NCBI GenBank assembly: GCA_947462875.1
Contig: CANHQJ010000025.1
Span: forward strand, 1 to 53,960
Direction: 5' to 3'
DNA from: Verrucomicrobiia bacterium
GTDB taxonomy: Bacteria > Verrucomicrobiota > Verrucomicrobiia > Verrucomicrobiales > Akkermansiaceae
DNA length: 53,960 nucleotides
Below the pieces are notes generated by a model. That model worked only from the letters and a program-made list of their open reading frames with translations. It was not told where the DNA came from and did not search any database. Made by a program: the position numbers and the translations under genes. Of the stretch, positions 46,187 through 53,596 are shown in pieces. Positions within the stretch are counted from its first letter, which is position 1. Every line of letters starts with the position of its first letter.

Positions 46187-47116
46187 TCAATCGACTTTCT
46201 CCACCAGCACCTTCACCGACATCAGGCACTGCGCCGTGCCGCGATACGCGCCTTTGACGGGGGCCACGTCATCGTAGTCCCTGCCCACCGCCACCTTGAC
46301 GTAGCGTTCATCCGCCAGCGTGCCGTTGGTGGGATCGTAGCCGATCCAGCCGACATACGGCAGATAAACCTCGCACCACGCATGGGAAGCCTGCGCCCCC
46401 ACCAGCATGTCGGTCGGGCCATTGTACAAATACCCCGAAGCATAACGGGCCGGCAGCGCCACCGCACGACACAGGGCCACCATCATGTGGGAAAAATCCT
46501 GACAAACCCCCGCGCGGATCGCAAACGATTGCTCCAGGCGCGTGTTGACCAGCGTGGCACCGGGTTGATAGTGGAAATTTTGATGGATCCAGTGCATGAA
46601 GGCCAACGCCTGCTGATGCAGCGAGTCGATGCCGTGCGACAGATCGATCGCCAATCGCCAAATTTCCGGATGGTGCGATACGAGCGAACTGTCTTGCAAA
46701 AACGACCACGTGCGCTCGCGCGTGGAAGGATCCGCGAGATCGGCCTTGGTCGCCAGCATGCTGCGTTCGGGAATCACCAGCGGCAGATTGAGCACGCGCA
46801 AGCGGCTGAGCACTTCCAGGCGCGTATGCGGCTTGAGCATCTCGAAATGATGCGTGATGTTTTGGAACAGATCGCTGAACCGCCGCATGCGCGTGGGCGG
46901 CAAGATGCGTATCGTGGAGGAAATGGTCCGTTGGAATGGAAACGTGCGTGGCTCCAGATGCAGCGTGTTCACGCTATCCACCACCGGTGCCGCGTATTCG
47001 AACAAAGTGGCATGTGTCACTTGTAATTTCGTTCCAATCATAGGCGGCAGACTGTATGGAGCAATCAGCTGTTGTTGGCAAGCCTCTTGCGGTGCATCGC
47101 CCTCGGTAGGACTCAT
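46187..47116 (-). CDS. Transglutaminase-like cysteine peptidase
   Basis: A 309-aa transglutaminase-family protein. An N-terminal beta domain (THATLFEYAAPVVDSVNTLH) precedes the core with the triad Cys in RAGVCQDFSHMM, His in ASHAWCEVY and Asp in GYDPTNG. Such proteins usually act as peptidases or amidases. The ATG at 47,116 overlaps the alpha-E stop by 4 bp (ATGA), which settles the start; a further ATG 25 codons on (MIGTKLQVTH) is the weaker choice. No signal peptide is seen. It forms a conserved set with the two genes upstream. Confidence 0.92.
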   Translation of the reverse strand: MSPTEGDAPQEACQQQLIAPYSLPPMIGTKLQVTHATLFEYAAPVVDSVNTLHLEPRTFPFQRTISSTIRILPPTRMRRFSDLFQNITHHFEMLKPHTRLEVLSRLRVLNLPLVIPERSMLATKADLADPSTRERTWSFLQDSSLVSHHPEIWRLAIDLSHGIDSLHQQALAFMHWIHQNFHYQPGATLVNTRLEQSFAIRAGVCQDFSHMMVALCRAVALPARYASGYLYNGPTDMLVGAQASHAWCEVYLPYVGWIGYDPTNGTLADERYVKVAVGRDYDDVAPVKGAYRGTAQCLMSVKVLVEKVD

Positions 47117-48135
47117 TGTTGCTCCTGCTCCTGTTGGTATTTCCAAGCCCGCATGGTGGCGGCGCTGTGATTGGTGGGCAGTGAGGTGTCGATCACATGA
47201 GGCATGAGGACGTAACTTTCAAACACCGCATCGCCGATGATGTTGAACTGCGTCTGCAGACCATCCAGCGCCTCGTGCAAGCCAGCGCTGAGAAACTCAT
47301 CCACCACGCCATAATTCAGCCGTCCCATGATTTGCCCGGTAGTGCGCTCGGCATTGTCGCTGTAGTCTCCCTGGAGAGTGCCGGAGATCGAATGCAGGCA
47401 ATGCTCCACACGCGTCATGCAATAGCGCACGCTGCGCGGGAAGGTGCGGGAAAAAATCAACAAATCCACGACTTTTCGCGGTTCGACCATGCCCGCATGG
47501 AGCGAGCGATACACGCCCATCGCACCGCAGGAGCGCACGATCGCGTTCCAGTGCATCGCCGTGGGCGCGGATGCGGGGAGAAAGGTGGAGATGTCGAGGA
47601 AGCGCGTGGTTTTGTCCGCCCGCTCCAGGTGACGTCCCAGGTCCATGAAATCCCAGCCCATGCCGCGATCGATCGTGGCGGCTGCAATGCCTTGGAAGGT
47701 GAAAACCGATCGCCGGATCAGGCCGTAAAACCGCGGCGGATCATCACGCAGCATTTTTTCCGCATCCTTGGAATTCAGGAAGAGATACAGAGAATTCAGT
47801 TCCTCCCACAACTCATCGGAAAGCTGATCGCGCACGGTGCGGGCATTTTCCCTCGCCTGCACCAGACAGGAAACAATGCTGTTCGGGTTGCGGCGGTCAT
47901 CGGTCAGGAACCGGATCACATCGGCACTGTGGCCGTTGCCATACAATTCGGTGTAGAGCACATCGTCGCCGGCGCTCCACACGATCGGCATCCAGAAATC
48001 CCGCAGACGCTCGCTATCCAGCCGCTCCCAGTCCAACAACAATTGCTCGTTGACGTCGATCAATCGCGCCAGGTTGTCGGCCCGTTCGACATACCGCACC
48101 ATCCAATACAGCGTATTTGCTACTCGTGATAACAT
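47113..48135 (-). CDS. Alpha-E domain protein
   Basis: A 340-aa all-helical protein starting MLSRVANTLYWMVRYVERAD, the hallmark of alpha-E (DUF403) proteins. Its biochemical role is unknown. It is nearly always beside a circularly permuted ATP-grasp and a transglutaminase, as here. The ATG at 48,135 has an AGGA site about 10 nt upstream. Coupling to the transglutaminase gene by ATGA and a 24-bp gap after the ATP-grasp gene show one operon. Confidence 0.93.
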   Translation of the reverse strand: MLSRVANTLYWMVRYVERADNLARLIDVNEQLLLDWERLDSERLRDFWMPIVWSAGDDVLYTELYGNGHSADVIRFLTDDRRNPNSIVSCLVQARENARTVRDQLSDELWEELNSLYLFLNSKDAEKMLRDDPPRFYGLIRRSVFTFQGIAAATIDRGMGWDFMDLGRHLERADKTTRFLDISTFLPASAPTAMHWNAIVRSCGAMGVYRSLHAGMVEPRKVVDLLIFSRTFPRSVRYCMTRVEHCLHSISGTLQGDYSDNAERTTGQIMGRLNYGVVDEFLSAGLHEALDGLQTQFNIIGDAVFESYVLMPHVIDTSLPTNHSAATMRAWKYQQEQEQQ

Positions 48136-48159
48136 CGTTTTGTTTCCTGAAAATTTTTC

Positions 48160-49599
48160 TCAGCTCCGCAGCACCCAGGTGTCCTTGCTGCCTCCTCCTT
48201 GCGAGGAATTCACCACCAACGAACCCTTTGTCAGCGCCACCCGCGTCAGCCCGCCCGGGACGATTTTCACATCTTCCCCATAAATGATGTACGGACGCAA
48301 ATCCACGTGACGGCCGGACATTTCCTCACCCGTCCACGTCGGCGACTGCGAGAGCGAGACCACCGGCTGCGCGATGTAATTGCGCGGATCCTCGATCAGC
48401 TTTTCGCGAAATTCCGCGATCTCCTTTTTGCTCGCCGATGGACCCATCAGCATGCCGTAGCCACCGGATTCATTCGCAGCCTTCACCACCAATTCCGGCA
48501 AGTGATCCAAGATATAGGACAAATCCTTTTTCTCCGAGGCCAGATACGTTTCCACATTCGGCAGGATCGGATCCTGGCCGAGATAATACTCGATCATTTT
48601 CGGCACAAACGTGTACATCACCTTGTCATCCGCCACCCCGGTGCCCACCGCATTGGCCAGCGCCACATTGCCCGCACGATACGCGCTCATCAGCCCGGGA
48701 ACGCCGAGCATCGAATCCTTGCGGAATACAATCGGGTCGATGAAGTCATCGTCGATGCGGCGGTAGATCACGTCCACACGCTGCAAGCCCTTGGTCGTGC
48801 GCATGAAGACAAACTGATCCACCACCACCAGGTCACGCCCCTCCACGATGGGGATGCCCATCTCCCGCGCCAAATAACAATGTTCGAAATAGGCGCTATT
48901 ATGACACCCGGGCGTCAGCAGCACACACACCGGATCGCTCTCCCGCACGGGCGAAATGTAGCGCAGCATGTTCAGCAGCTCGCGTGGATAGGCATCCAGC
49001 GGACGCACGTCCGATGTCTCGAAAAGCGACGGAAACGCCCGCTTGAGCGCATTGCGATTTTCCAGCAAATAGGAAGCTCCCGAGGGACAGCGGCCATTGT
49101 CTTCGAGCACATAAAAGTTCCCATCTCCCCCGCGCACCAGGTCCGAGCCGCAAATGTGGATGTAGATGTCTTTCGGCACATCCATCCCGCGGAAGGCCTC
49201 GCGGAAATTTTTCGCCTCGTCCACATACATGCGCGGAATCGTGCCGTCGTTGAGTATGTGCTGATCGTGGTAAATGTCGTGGAGAAACAGATTCAGCGCA
49301 ATGATCCGCTGCGTCAGCCCCGCTTCCAAGTGCTCCCACTCCGCCGCCGTCAACACACGCGGCACCGGGTCGAAGGGAAAAATCCGTTCCGTCCCCTTCT
49401 CATCGTGATAGACATTGAAGGTAATGCCCTGGCGCAGGAAATACATGTCGGAAGCCGCCTTGCGCTCTTCGAATTCTTTGCGGGTCAATCCTTCAAACAC
49501 TTGATGCAGCGACCGGCAACAGGGCCGCACCGTGCCGTCGGATTCGAACATCTCATCATAGCCAGCCCAAGGGGTATATCCGGTAAAAAGCGTATTCAC
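48160..49599 (-). CDS. Circularly permuted type 2 ATP-grasp protein
   Basis: A 479-aa protein. YDEMFESDGTVRPCCRSLHQ near the start, then ICGSDLVRGGDGNFYVLEDN and KAANESGGYGMLMGPSAS near residue 385 fit the DUF404/DUF407 circularly permuted ATP-grasp family, proposed to be an amino acid or peptide ligase that uses ATP. With the alpha-E and transglutaminase proteins it was suggested, from comparative genomics (Iyer, Aravind and colleagues), to make or process a peptide-like product. The start is a GTG at 49,599 with GAGGGG 11 nt upstream. It leads the operon. Confidence 0.93.
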   Translation of the reverse strand: MNTLFTGYTPWAGYDEMFESDGTVRPCCRSLHQVFEGLTRKEFEERKAASDMYFLRQGITFNVYHDEKGTERIFPFDPVPRVLTAAEWEHLEAGLTQRIIALNLFLHDIYHDQHILNDGTIPRMYVDEAKNFREAFRGMDVPKDIYIHICGSDLVRGGDGNFYVLEDNGRCPSGASYLLENRNALKRAFPSLFETSDVRPLDAYPRELLNMLRYISPVRESDPVCVLLTPGCHNSAYFEHCYLAREMGIPIVEGRDLVVVDQFVFMRTTKGLQRVDVIYRRIDDDFIDPIVFRKDSMLGVPGLMSAYRAGNVALANAVGTGVADDKVMYTFVPKMIEYYLGQDPILPNVETYLASEKKDLSYILDHLPELVVKAANESGGYGMLMGPSASKKEIAEFREKLIEDPRNYIAQPVVSLSQSPTWTGEEMSGRHVDLRPYIIYGEDVKIVPGGLTRVALTKGSLVVNSSQGGGSKDTWVLRS

Positions 49600-49827: not shown

Positions 49828-49889
49828 CTTAAAAAAAAACGATTTTTTTTCTTGCCATGATACATGTGTCAATTAAGAATTCTTTCGCT

Positions 49890-50561
49890 ATGAAGCATGT
49901 AACACTAATTGCAACTATCGGCTCCGTGACTGCTATCGCATTCGCTGGAGAACCTGCTCCCGTTCAAACCGCTACAGCTCCTGCTCCCGCTCCTGCCCTC
50001 GGTGGTTGGTTTGCTGGCGCTGGCTTCGGTCAATTCGACTCTGAGGGCAGCCTCGGCGAACTCACCAACGATATCGACTTTGATATGTATTCCTTGCATA
50101 TTGGTCGCAATCTGGGCACCCAGTTTCTTGGCTGCGATCTAGCCACTTACTTGGAAGTTGGCTACCTCGACGGTGATACCAATGCCACCATTCCAGCGCC
50201 ATTGCCCATCCCACCACTTCTTCCACTTCCGCCTACCGTTGCCGACGTTGACGTTGAAATCATTCCGATCACCCTCAACCTTCTTGCTGAGCGCACTCTG
50301 TTCTCCGGCATCAAAGGATACATCAGCGGTGGCATCGGTTACGCTTTCACCGAAACATCATTCTCCGGCAACAGCGACTCCGACGGCGGTTTCTACGCTC
50401 AAGCCTCCATCGGCTTGGCATACGACATCAACGAGCAGTGGGAAATTTACGGCGGCGCTCGTTACATCTACCTCGGCGACCTAGAAATCGGCGGCGGTCT
50501 TGGTGATGCGGAGCTCGACGACAGCGTTGGCTACGAAATTGGCCTTCGTTACAACTTCTAA
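49890..50561 (+). CDS. Outer-membrane beta-barrel protein, copy 1
   Basis: A 223-aa protein. Signal peptide MKHVTLIATIGSVTAIAFAG, a Pro/Ala-rich linker (APVQTATAPAPAPALGG), then alternating beta strands: GGWFAGAGFGQF, TYLEVGYLDGD, KGYISGGIGYAFTE, YAQASIGLAYDIN, YGGARYIYLGD and a C-terminal strand VGYEIGLRYNF ending in Phe, as outer-membrane barrels do. It resembles the small OmpA/OmpW-like 8-strand porin-type barrels. A Pro-rich loop near residue 105 is absent from copy 2. The start is the ATG at 49,890, from the signal peptide; no Shine-Dalgarno is seen. Function unknown. Confidence 0.85.
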   Translation: MKHVTLIATIGSVTAIAFAGEPAPVQTATAPAPAPALGGWFAGAGFGQFDSEGSLGELTNDIDFDMYSLHIGRNLGTQFLGCDLATYLEVGYLDGDTNATIPAPLPIPPLLPLPPTVADVDVEIIPITLNLLAERTLFSGIKGYISGGIGYAFTETSFSGNSDSDGGFYAQASIGLAYDINEQWEIYGGARYIYLGDLEIGGGLGDAELDDSVGYEIGLRYNF

Positions 50562-50932: not shown

Positions 50933-50992
50933 ATGAAAAAAAATTATTATTTTCTTGCTAACTGCGATCAAATGACAAAAATGTTTTTTGCT

Positions 50993-51739
50993 ATGAAGCT
51001 ACTAACACTTATTACTGCTGCCGGCTCCGTGACTGCTACCGCATTCGCAGGAGAAACCGCTCCCGTTCAAACCGCTCCCGCTCCCGCTCCTACCCTTGGT
51101 GGTTGGTTCGCTGGTGTTGGCTTCGGTCAATTCGAATCCGAGAGCAATCTCGATCGCATTGCCAACGAGGCCGATCCAGATGGCTTGGGCTTCGGTTACC
51201 TGGCTAACGGCGGTCCTACACTCCGTGCACCGAGCGGAAGCTACGGCGACCACTACGGTATCGATGACTTCGAGTTCGACATGTACACGCTGCACGTCGG
51301 TCGTGACCTCGGTGCCCAGTTTCTCGGCTGCGATCTCGCCGCTTACCTGGAAGTGGGCTACCTCGATGGCGAAGCGAACATGAGCTACCGTCGTTTCCTC
51401 TCCTCTCCTTTGCAGAGCGCTGGTATTGACATCGACATCATCCCCATCACCCTGAACCTGCTGGCTGAGCGCACTCTGTTCGCTGGTATCAAAGGTTACA
51501 TCAGCGGTGGTATCGGTTATGCTTTCACCGATTCCAAATTCCTCGGTCAATCCGACACCGACGGTGGTTTCTACGCACAAGCCTCCATTGGCTTGGCCTA
51601 CGACATCAACGACAACTGGGAAATCTACGGCGGTGCCCGTTACCTGTTCCTCGGCGACCTTGATCTGGGCGATAGCGTCGGCGGTGCCGAGCTCGATGAC
51701 AGCATCGGCTACGAAATCGGCCTGCGCTACAACTTCTAA
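50993..51739 (+). CDS. Outer-membrane beta-barrel protein, copy 2
   Basis: A 248-aa paralogue of the preceding gene. Signal peptide MKLLTLITAAGSVTATAFAG, the same linker and barrel strands (GGWFAGVGFGQF, AYLEVGYLDGE, IKGYISGGIGYAFTD, YAQASIGLAYDIND, IGYEIGLRYNF). It has about 28 extra residues (GFGYLANGGPTLRAPSGSYG region) in an early loop and a different, non-proline loop near residue 145. Loops differ while strands are conserved, as expected for surface-exposed loops. The start is the ATG at 50,993, from the signal peptide. Confidence 0.85.
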   Translation: MKLLTLITAAGSVTATAFAGETAPVQTAPAPAPTLGGWFAGVGFGQFESESNLDRIANEADPDGLGFGYLANGGPTLRAPSGSYGDHYGIDDFEFDMYTLHVGRDLGAQFLGCDLAAYLEVGYLDGEANMSYRRFLSSPLQSAGIDIDIIPITLNLLAERTLFAGIKGYISGGIGYAFTDSKFLGQSDTDGGFYAQASIGLAYDINDNWEIYGGARYLFLGDLDLGDSVGGAELDDSIGYEIGLRYNF

Positions 51740-51768
51740 TTAAAGTTGCGTCTAGCACAAAACACCTT

Positions 51769-51798
51769 AAGGCATGGGCTGCGGCCCATGCCTTTTTT
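51769..51798 (+). terminator. Terminator of beta-barrel gene 2
   Basis: GGCATGGGC-TGCG-GCCCATGCC with TTTTTT. The stem differs from copy 1 by one compensated pair (T-A to C-G). Confidence 0.95.
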
Positions 51799-51996
51799 GC
51801 GTGAATGGACTGCCATCAGCCATCGGAAACCACACTTCCCCTCCGGTGACAACGGTCACGAAAGTGTCAAAAAAAAGAAAAAAGAGCAGCACAACCGCCT
51901 GCGGATTGGAGCCTTATTGGTGTTCGACTCTCTGAGAATGTCACCCCCCTCCACCGGGCATCACGCCTGGCAGCCTCGGACCTGCTGATTCCGGGC

Positions 51997-52082
51997 AAAA
52001 ATGAAGCGGCCCGATCAGAAAGCCTAGGAAAAACCCAAAACCTAGTGCGTATTGATCGGACCGCCTTTGTCGACTTGCGACA
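51997..52082 (-). ncRNA. Candidate structured small RNA, copy A
   Basis: On the minus strand GCGGTCCGATCA (52,053-52,064) pairs with TGATCGGGCCGC (52,006-52,017) through 12 pairs. Inside, CTAGG/CCTAG closes a 12-nt loop TTTTGGGTTTTT. TTCATTTTT follows as a weak terminator tract. One outer pair is U-G on this strand but C-A on the other, which favours minus-strand transcription. A promoter lies just upstream. The predicted transcript is about 86 nt. No open frame fits. It may instead be a terminator-like repeat. Confidence 0.5.
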
Positions 52083-52087
52083 CACGA

Positions 52088-52115
52088 AGCATAATCAATT
52101 GTGCGATTACGTCAA
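52088..52115 (-). promoter_or_regulatory. Candidate promoter of small RNA copy A
   Basis: TTGACG (52,110-52,115), 16 nt, TATGCT (52,088-52,093) on the minus strand; predicted start near 52,082, about 17 nt before the outer stem. Confidence 0.5.
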
Positions 52116-52196
52116 CACTTTTTTTACTTTTTTTTGATTTTTTTCGAGTCGCTATGCCCCCCCTCAAAACGAACAGCTTTCCGTGCCCCGAAGCAC

Positions 52197-52282
52197 AAAA
52201 AAAGCGGCCCAGTCGAGCAATGCAGGAAAAACCCAAAACCTGACACTACTGACTGGACCGCCAGTTGAAGAAATCCGAGAAC
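52197..52282 (-). ncRNA. Candidate structured small RNA, copy B
   Basis: The same plan as copy A, exactly 200 bp away. GCGGTCCAGTC pairs with GACTGGGCCGC (again one U-G), CAGG/CCTG closes the identical 12-nt loop, and TTTTTTT follows. Compared with copy A, pairs in both stems have changed on both sides, keeping the fold. Its promoter is weak: TTCAAG (52,311-52,316), 17 nt, TAGTTG (52,288-52,293), with a palindrome in the spacer. It may alternatively be the terminator of the acyltransferase gene upstream. Confidence 0.45.
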
Positions 52283-52293
52283 CCCCTCAACTA

Positions 52294-52307
52294 CGGACCG
52301 TGGTCCG
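52294..52307. promoter_or_regulatory. 14-bp palindrome upstream of small RNA copy B
   Basis: CGGACCGTGGTCCG, a perfect inverted repeat apart from the central GT. It lies in the 17-nt spacer of the weak promoter before copy B and could be an operator or a small hairpin. The rest of 52,308-52,414 shows no gene. Confidence 0.4.
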
Positions 52308-52414
52308 AGACTTGAAAAACACCAGCAAGTCAGAAACCGACCAATGTCGACAGGTTTACCTAGTTATGAATCACATTCTTTCGAAAATGTGAAAAAAAAT
52401 CTCATTCAGCGCGA

Positions 52415-53596
52415 TCAGGGCGTCAATAAGTCCAGCAATTTCCTGCGCAAGTCCCCCATCAGCGGATCCGCCACCCCGCGTTCCCGCTTGGATTCGACCT
52501 CGATCGCCTCGCCCACCGTCATGATCACGCGCATCGGCCGATGAATCGTCGGCCTGCGATTCCCCAGCGCCTCTTCATAGCGCTCCACGGTCTCGATGAT
52601 GCGCTCGGGCGTCGGATCCTGCGCGATGTAGTCGGGCGGAAAATGATACGCCTGCTGCGCCACCTCCAGATCAAACAACATCTTCCAGCGTTGCTCGCGT
52701 TCCTCTTGCGATAGCTCCCCCGCCACCAGCGCCGGCAGCAAGGCCTTGCGCAGATTTTTCACCCGCATCACCACACTCTCCTCGCTGCGCCCCGCCAGAT
52801 ACGCCTGCTCCATCGGTGACAAGACCCGATCCATGAAACGCCCCAGGCGCTGCTCCACCGTTCCCTCCTGCACCACGCCGAAATACTCCACCTCCTTCAG
52901 CCCCAGCAGCCCGTAGCCCAGGCGCGACACCCGCTCGAGAATCGACCCCTGCGATATTTTCCAGCCAAACCGTTTTTCCAGGCTCTCCACCACCGGCCGC
53001 ACAGATGCCTGCCAATCGCCCATAAACCGATACCGAATCGCCAGCGGATGAATCACCACTTTTCCCGCATCCCCCCGCGCCTTCGCCGCACTTCGCGCCA
53101 AAAAAGAAATCCCCTCCTGCAAATGAACCACCCGATCATTCGTCCGCGTGATCACTCCCTCGGGAAAAATCACCAGCGGTCGTTTCGCCGCCGTGAGAAT
53201 CCCCGTCGCCGTCTTCAAGGACTCGCGGTCCATGCCCTCGCGATTCATGCTGAAGGCACCCACGCGCGGCAGCAGCCAGCGCAGCACGGGCGAGCGAAAC
53301 AAATGCGCGCTCGCCATGATGTAGGGCGCACAGCCGATTTCCTTCGACAGGGCCGACAACAACAGCGGGTCACACGGCCGGCAGTGATTCGGTGCGATCA
53401 TGATCCCCTGCCCCGCCGCCATCGAGGCCCGGATCAGCTCGCCGCCACGCAGTTCCACCGACTCGATCCCCCAGTGCTTTTTCAATCGACGCGGCATCCC
53501 CAAGCCCATCACCCACGGCCAAAACCGGCTGTCACGAGGCGGCGTAAATTCATAAGCTTCTTCACTGACAAGCGGCTGCACAAGCGATTCCAGCAA
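52415..53596 (-). CDS. PlsC-type acyltransferase
   Basis: A 393-aa protein with the acyltransferase core: APNHCRPCD (His71 and Asp76 of the H-x4-D site), FSMNREGMDR as the second block and VIFPEGVITR near residue 143 as the third. It should move an acyl chain to a glycerol-phosphate-type acceptor in membrane lipid synthesis. The C-terminal 180 residues, with many charged helices, are longer than in a basic PlsC and of unknown role. The start is a TTG at 53,596; the first in-frame ATG is 29 codons later (MGLGMPRRLKK), so the exact start is uncertain. Confidence 0.85.
   Translation of the reverse strand: MLESLVQPLVSEEAYEFTPPRDSRFWPWVMGLGMPRRLKKHWGIESVELRGGELIRASMAAGQGIMIAPNHCRPCDPLLLSALSKEIGCAPYIMASAHLFRSPVLRWLLPRVGAFSMNREGMDRESLKTATGILTAAKRPLVIFPEGVITRTNDRVVHLQEGISFLARSAAKARGDAGKVVIHPLAIRYRFMGDWQASVRPVVESLEKRFGWKISQGSILERVSRLGYGLLGLKEVEYFGVVQEGTVEQRLGRFMDRVLSPMEQAYLAGRSEESVVMRVKNLRKALLPALVAGELSQEEREQRWKMLFDLEVAQQAYHFPPDYIAQDPTPERIIETVERYEEALGNRRPTIHRPMRVIMTVGEAIEVESKRERGVADPLMGDLRRKLLDLLTP

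Follow-up and report, generated by a model that had tools for sequence, protein, structure and literature searches.

The space between an outer-membrane beta-barrel gene and an acyltransferase gene in the window (the whole stretch of 53,960 nucleotides that was analysed) raises the question whether two similar hairpin elements on the minus strand, herein called copies A and B, are a repeated terminator or a pair of small RNA (sRNA) genes. Both elements, with the outer stem, the common apical loop and the 3′ U-tract given in the preliminary description, are present with starts 198 bp apart (Table 1), and an apical block of 18 nt (AGGTTTTGGGTTTTTCCT, minus strand) is identical in the two. The answer favoured here, with a confidence somewhat above even, is that A and B are sibling genes of an undescribed Verrucomicrobiales small RNA family whose loop would pair with mRNAs in trans. 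Judged from the nucleotide sequences and their comparison, the elements very probably constitute a small RNA gene, and the loop is likely to be its effector.

Table 1 Features of the region of copies A and B, in window coordinates
Feature	Position	Strand	Remark
Copy A core: outer 14-bp stem, inner stem, apical loop	51998-52067	-	Fold and model match
Copy A apical loop UUUUGGGUUUUU, closing AGG/CCU	52029-52040	-	Predicted effector site
U-tract 3′ of copy A	51997-52001	-	Putative intrinsic terminator tail
Copy A 5′ mini-hairpin GUCGCAAGUCGAC	52069-52081	-	Double change among species
Copy A predicted promoter: -35 TTGACG 52115-52110, 16-nt spacer, -10 TATGCT 52093-52088	52088-52115	-	9/12 matches
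Copy B core, sibling of A	52196-52265	-	Fold and model match
Copy B apical loop, same as that of A (UUUUGGGUUUUU)	52227-52238	-	
U-tract 3′ of copy B	52197-52203	-	
Copy B 5′ hairpin, longer than that of A and different	52263-52292	-	Fold; B-type upstream parts differ across species
Outer-membrane beta-barrel gene	50933-51739	+	PF13505 below cut-off; flanks the A/B pair, convergent to A
Acyltransferase gene	52415-53596	-	PF01553; flanks the A/B pair

Minus-strand folding gave -33.3 kcal/mol for copy A (z -6.86) and -37.3 kcal/mol for copy B (z -7.82), with 0 of 200 shuffled sequences as good in either case. Plus-strand folds were weaker in both copies (A: -28.3; B: -23.0 kcal/mol). Each position of the apical loop was computed to be unpaired with a probability >0.97 in A and B; a folded member of family f4 had a less open apical loop (0.58-1.0 unpaired probability). 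The covariance model R1 (see below) matched copy A in a strand-specific manner (minus 96.1 bits versus plus 30.7 bits) and copy B with 74.5 bits, and the broader model R3 matched them with 70.7 and 40.1 bits, respectively. The outer pair that had been described as U-G on the minus and C-A on the plus strand is real, U-G being its commonest form (16 of 28 order-wide sequences). Covariation had been claimed for both stems: the differences between A and B in the outer stem are true double changes, and in the inner stem one double change was retained, the remainder being a shorter stem in B. Covariation from the two copies alone is thin, and with homologues it is strong.

Known RNA families were searched for with Rfam 15. 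At the gathering threshold the whole window gave three tRNAs only; region 51740-52420, searched with E up to 10, gave two matches, both below gathering (on copy A, 17.7 bits versus a gathering value of 48; the other, 15 versus 88). Six homologue loci, searched with E up to 1, gave five matches, all below gathering and none on the element, and fifteen order-wide loci gave three tRNAs only. In the preliminary description the element could not be matched to a known family, and here no Rfam family reached its threshold for it in window, region or homologue loci. No description of this RNA was found in the literature searched, by which absence from print is not proven, and no paper on a Luteolibacter sRNA was found.

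Homologues were collected by pattern searches and covariance models. When the 18-nt block was sought in 57 relatives and one mismatch was tolerated, 11 genomes matched, namely 9 of the 10 of the genus plus two others; four block matches (L005, L014, L016, L017), both non-genus matches included, were unrelated by eye. Model R1, built from 11 sequences (both copies and nine genus homologues), detected the element in all 10 genomes of the genus. The tenth (G004) had been missed by the 18-nt pattern because GGG/CCC replaces AGG/CCU at the loop foot, in itself a compensatory change. In the family, R1 matched 83 of 195 genomes and 8 of 16 genera. A degenerate-pattern scan of named genomes yielded 50 loci, mostly from Akkermansiaceae, Luteolibacter, Haloferula and related metagenome-assembled genomes, of which 38 were put to the model; 67 of the resulting 122 matches were kept after removal of antisense and duplicate loci. 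Six of the 38 loci, from Actinobacteria, Arthrobacter, Cohaesibacter, Paracoccus, Dyadobacter and one bacterium, were without a model match and served as specificity control. Model R2, based on alignment A3 with 49 of the 67 kept members, matched 94 of the 239 genomes sampled from the order. Model R3, based on alignment A4 with 28 chosen members, matched 169 of the 239 sampled genomes, covering 39 of 48 genera and all six families (f1-f6), with some matches weak and with a count that is circular for the genomes behind the 18 A4 members that had come via R2. In genus g3, whose genomes are small, those listed had weak matches or none. Homologues with covarying stems, for which a covariance-model search had been proposed, were thus found through the order Verrucomicrobiales. 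The public label Akkermansia muciniphila of five loci (L062, L076, L080, L097, L106) looks wrong, these metagenome genomes apparently belonging to the window's genus.

Beyond the order, R2 gave 3 weak matches outside it on 288 phylum genomes, and R3, applied to 335 class genomes, matched 21 outside-order genomes at E <= 0.001 (best 9e-6), 11 of which were read. Three (f9) were plain terminators behind a gene; four from f19 had a similar hairpin with GGUUU(C/U)AUGGUUUUUCC as its loop; three from f15/f83 and one from f113 had a similar stem and a loop with a G-run. Eight of the 11 thus resemble the family; the f19 hairpins are likely homologous to it, the other four possibly so.

In the 28-sequence alignment, 99.2% of the cells of the 14-pair outer stem were paired and both sides had changed at 12 of the 14 pairs, which is the compensatory change looked for in a trans-encoded sRNA gene. 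The outer-stem covariation score was 0.565, versus 0.289 in shuffles and <=0.208 for slid partners; narrower sets showed both-side changes at 7 of 21 and 9 of 20 pairs. Across the other families of the order the stem letters differ and pairing is kept, the order-wide loop core is a G-run then a U-run, and U-rich tails occur in homologues also. GGGGGTT lay within the match in 18 of 18 further order members, all of them outside the R3 training alignment. Since the loop is kept while the stem is free, the loop would be the working part of the molecule.

With respect to copy number, 1-3 matches were counted in 155 of the 169 matched genomes and mostly one in f2-f6, these per-genome numbers including some antisense matches. 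The window's own genome has two copies, tandem siblings were found elsewhere (L040, L042, G086, G022 and G075, the last with three copies within ~530 bp), and 12 R2 matches in G064 represent eleven distinct places.

In the proposed mechanism, the element would be transcribed from its promoter, with a start near or before the small 5′ hairpin (missing in some families), and would fold into one long hairpin, the foot of which would stop transcription together with the U-run. The 3′ hairpin thus probably serves as terminator as well, and the typical unit is predicted to be ~90 nt long, free-standing and sometimes arranged in sibling arrays. The apical loop would expose the G-run then U-run as single strand and would act in trans, pairing with mRNAs (complement AAAAACCC...), presumably without Hfq or ProQ. 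Among known sRNAs, pairing with mRNA is the commonest mode for siblings that end in their own terminator.

Targets were searched for in several ways. Complements of the 18-mer with <=2 mismatches occurred at four sites of the own genome, i.e. both copies and two others inside open frames. Loop complements at start regions were in no excess over internal, antisense and shuffled-loop controls (307 + 308 genes, taken from ~10% and ~8% of two genomes, a sample that a small regulon would escape). The exact 12-mer complement was found at 34 sites in the 10 genus genomes, versus 15 for the reversed pattern; the sRNA itself accounts for 12 of the 34, and of the other 22, 20 were read, with 19 inside a same-strand open frame and 1 not. 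Two pairs of these non-sRNA sites are each common to two species, and a conserved long loop complement was not found in the genus. The 12-mer can read Glu-Lys-Pro-Lys in the frames viewed, and the codons may therefore explain the slight excess. Given no sign of targets, pairing of the loop with mRNAs, rather than docking of a protein, was put at about an even chance, with protein docking next.

Were the conserved loop to dock a protein, either a chaperone or a regulator titrated as by CsrB or 6S, no mRNA pairing would be involved. Such a role, which we regard as possible yet less than probable, is consistent with a loop that is kept though the stems change, with the missing mRNA target signal and with the several copies in some genomes. 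None of 57 relatives yielded Hfq (PF17209) or ProQ (PF04352); the controls were positive in 5 of 14 genomes for Hfq and in 1 of 14, E. coli, for ProQ, and highly diverged homologues would be able to escape both searches. This result counts in favour of docking. No candidate protein emerged from the search for these two, and the copy number of mostly one in f2-f6 speaks against docking.

A promoter scan of the region gave two promoter-like sites (shuffle mean 0.4), the one of copy A and one on the plus strand (TTGTCG-17-CATAAT, 52067-52095), which opposes the copy A promoter and may be a mere reflection of the palindromic 5′ hairpin. For copy A, a transcript start near 52,080 fits the predicted promoter. 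In the alignment of genus homologues, TTGAC stands at the matching place and is preceded, on the transcribed strand, by an A-rich stretch before the -35 element, perhaps UP-like. TTGAC was found 40-75 nt before the core in 47 of the 65 members with sufficient upstream sequence (shuffles: mean 1.6, maximum 6), and the -10 region behind it averaged 3.1/6 matches versus 2.2 in shuffles. The result of a free two-hexamer scan was modest, with >=9 matches in 29% of 62 versus 10% in shuffles and >=10 matches in none of 62 versus 1%. Within the 55 nt examined, TTGAC was absent from 9 of the 10 G064 copies read. The 5′ mini-hairpin itself is GUCGC/GCGAC in some species and GUCAC/GUGAC in others, which is a double change, and 54 of 65 members, versus 2.15 in shuffles, had a GTC..GAC arrangement within the 24 nt that precede the core; the folding energy of those 24 nt alone hardly beats shuffles. 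By eye, the f4 members read seem to be without the 5′ hairpin and to have TATAAC close to the main stem.

A promoter of its own was thus predicted for copy A and, in the promoter scan of the region, none was recognised before copy B. A transcript of 86 nt from 52,282, as proposed earlier for B, is not suggested by the sequence, since the 5′ part of B is another, longer hairpin (~52263-52292). Because B has no recognised promoter, read-through from the acyltransferase gene is possible, and B alone might belong to the acyltransferase mRNA as its 3′ end, from which an sRNA may be processed, with A as an independent gene. An acyltransferase homologue adjoins an element on its upstream side in G004, G006 and G007, as this would predict; however, other genes lie upstream of the B-type copies in G003 and G008, the B copy in G007 has TTGACA ~95 nt before its core, and in G004 and G006 the copy next to the acyltransferase belongs to the A type and has a TTGAC of its own. 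An mRNA end is accordingly a minority possibility for B, of about the same weight as protein docking for the loop.

Sigma-54-like sites were scanned for in 120 upstream regions with an 11-letter consensus, GG and GC being required at the right spacing. Sites with >=10/11 letters were found in 6 of the 120 regions (0.02 expected from shuffles) and sites with >=9/11 letters in 8 (0.29 expected), and none at copy A or B, the best for B having 6/11 letters. Among the eight are two G064 loci at equal distance (L178 with 11/11, L173 with 9/11 letters), both from the nine G064 copies in which TTGAC is absent, further the f15 and f83 loci, and L292 and L304, where the site is rather far from the core; sites resembling TGGCAC-N5-TTGC stand before three class-level matches. 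L178, L173, L301, L302 and L303, all family members or similar RNAs, are preceded by sigma-54-like sites. The sigma-54 DNA-binding domain was present in 8 of 8 genomes asked, including that of the window and those of these five loci. With such sites before some relatives and sigma-54 present, the siblings may be under the control of different sigma factors. Sigma-54 can also drive known sRNAs, namely those of the Qrr and GlmY/GlmZ type. In G064, the paralogues L176 and L180 resemble each other over a long upstream stretch that has neither TTGAC nor a good sigma-54-like site, a hint of yet another promoter type.

Neighbouring genes were assessed for 71 elements. The upstream neighbour was on the same strand in 38 cases and on the opposite strand in 32, and the downstream neighbour in 35 and 34, respectively, the counts being based on crude ORF calls and including non-independent orthologues. 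Crude ORFs of >=80 aa overlapped by an element (25 of 71) were set aside in these counts. After re-reading of 16 of the 25 overlaps, the element was located at the very edge of the frame, at its start or its end, in the longest ones (L178 892 aa, L179 488, L108 430, L173 350, L160 288), and in L059 inside an ORF of 383 aa on the opposite strand. The neighbours in other species are presumably FabH, a class-IV aminotransferase, pyruvate carboxylase, aspartyl-tRNA synthetase and others, by their looks. Varied neighbours and random orientation suggest a gene that keeps its form while its place shifts.

These counts bear on the simplest alternative, according to which A and B are intrinsic (Rho-independent) terminators, alike by chance and nothing more. 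Both copies have, at sequence level, the GC-rich hairpin and following U-tract of such terminators, B could end the acyltransferase transcript, and 3 of the 11 class-level matches read were plain terminators behind a gene. Unlike in intrinsic terminators, the loop sequence, the 5′ hairpin pattern and the promoter are kept along with the hairpin. Furthermore, the upstream gene is on the same strand in just 38 of 70 cases, promoter and 5′ hairpin patterns lie directly before the hairpin, a terminator has no need of a kept 12-nt loop, and A follows the terminator of B with a promoter of its own, so that this alternative is very improbable. The preference of the preliminary description for sibling small RNAs over a repeated terminator is borne out by promoter, 5′ hairpin, kept loop and covarying homologues, the first three of which a repeated terminator alone is insufficient to explain.

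A dispersed mobile repeat of REP or MITE type, which would suit the eleven distinct places in G064 and the neighbours that vary between species, can practically be dismissed, as 155 of the 169 matched genomes have 1-3 matches, the G064 paralogues differ in their stems, promoters are present, the match is strand-specific and many near-identical dispersed copies were not found. Equally slight is the chance that the element regulates the gene downstream as a cis-acting leader (riboswitch or attenuator), which some clades with a same-strand gene within ~100 bp would suit: no constant same-strand gene follows the element, downstream orientation being random (35 versus 34) and gene identity varied, and the next gene after A in the window is convergent. 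Cis leader and 3′-UTR readings of the family were both set aside, given the random neighbour orientation.

The sibling sRNAs OmrA/OmrB, Qrr and LhrC are trans-encoded. Like them, the RNA proposed here would be short, intrinsically terminated and expressed from its own promoter, and would occur in multiple copies with one single-stranded segment, often in tandem; unlike in their case, Hfq and ProQ were found in none of the 57 relatives, the segment that the copies have in common is the terminator-like hairpin's own loop, and the target tests were negative. With the 6S and CsrB/CsrC RNAs it would share a stable, structured, standalone form that could hold a protein; it differs in that no Rfam model was matched at threshold and that copy A is, by eye, without GGA. 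The family is new; its kind, sRNA, is already known. One table of a review (PMC9029176) gives the number 8 for the whole PVC group versus 345 for Proteobacteria, which we take as counts of distinct sRNAs.

Unusual features of the proposed family are its depth within an order in which the searches gave neither Hfq nor ProQ, and signs that siblings may be controlled by different sigma factors. With a match in 169 of the 239 sampled order genomes and up to eleven places in one genome, it would offer a genetic handle on RNA regulation there, and it is testable, since named Luteolibacter and Haloferula strains carry it. A further-reaching and rather doubtful version would make it an order-core post-transcriptional regulator that works without Hfq or ProQ, with siblings under sigma-70 and sigma-54 that pass signals into one shared loop, to be read by a dedicated RNA-binding protein or to act alone; if true, this would be a system of RNA regulation apart from the known chaperone-based ones.

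Several minor observations were made in the surroundings of the elements. Copy A is framed by A-rich/T-rich arms (51867-51886 and 52118-52137) that form a 20-nt inverted repeat with 90% complementarity. An 11-bp GC-rich hairpin followed by T (51769-51794, plus strand) stands after the beta-barrel gene and is an ordinary strong terminator. The beta-barrel gene is one of two tandem paralogues with like N-terminal regions (49857-50561 and 50933-51739), PF13505 being above cut-off in the first, and genes for a transglutaminase, an Alpha-E protein and a circularly permuted ATP-grasp protein (PF01841, PF04168, PF14403) lie in a row on the minus strand at 46187-49599. At L013 and L015, a long inverted structure (GGCGTTTT..AAAACGCC) around CCTAG/CTAGG is located ~160-230 nt upstream of the loop, in both species on the upstream side of the A copy.
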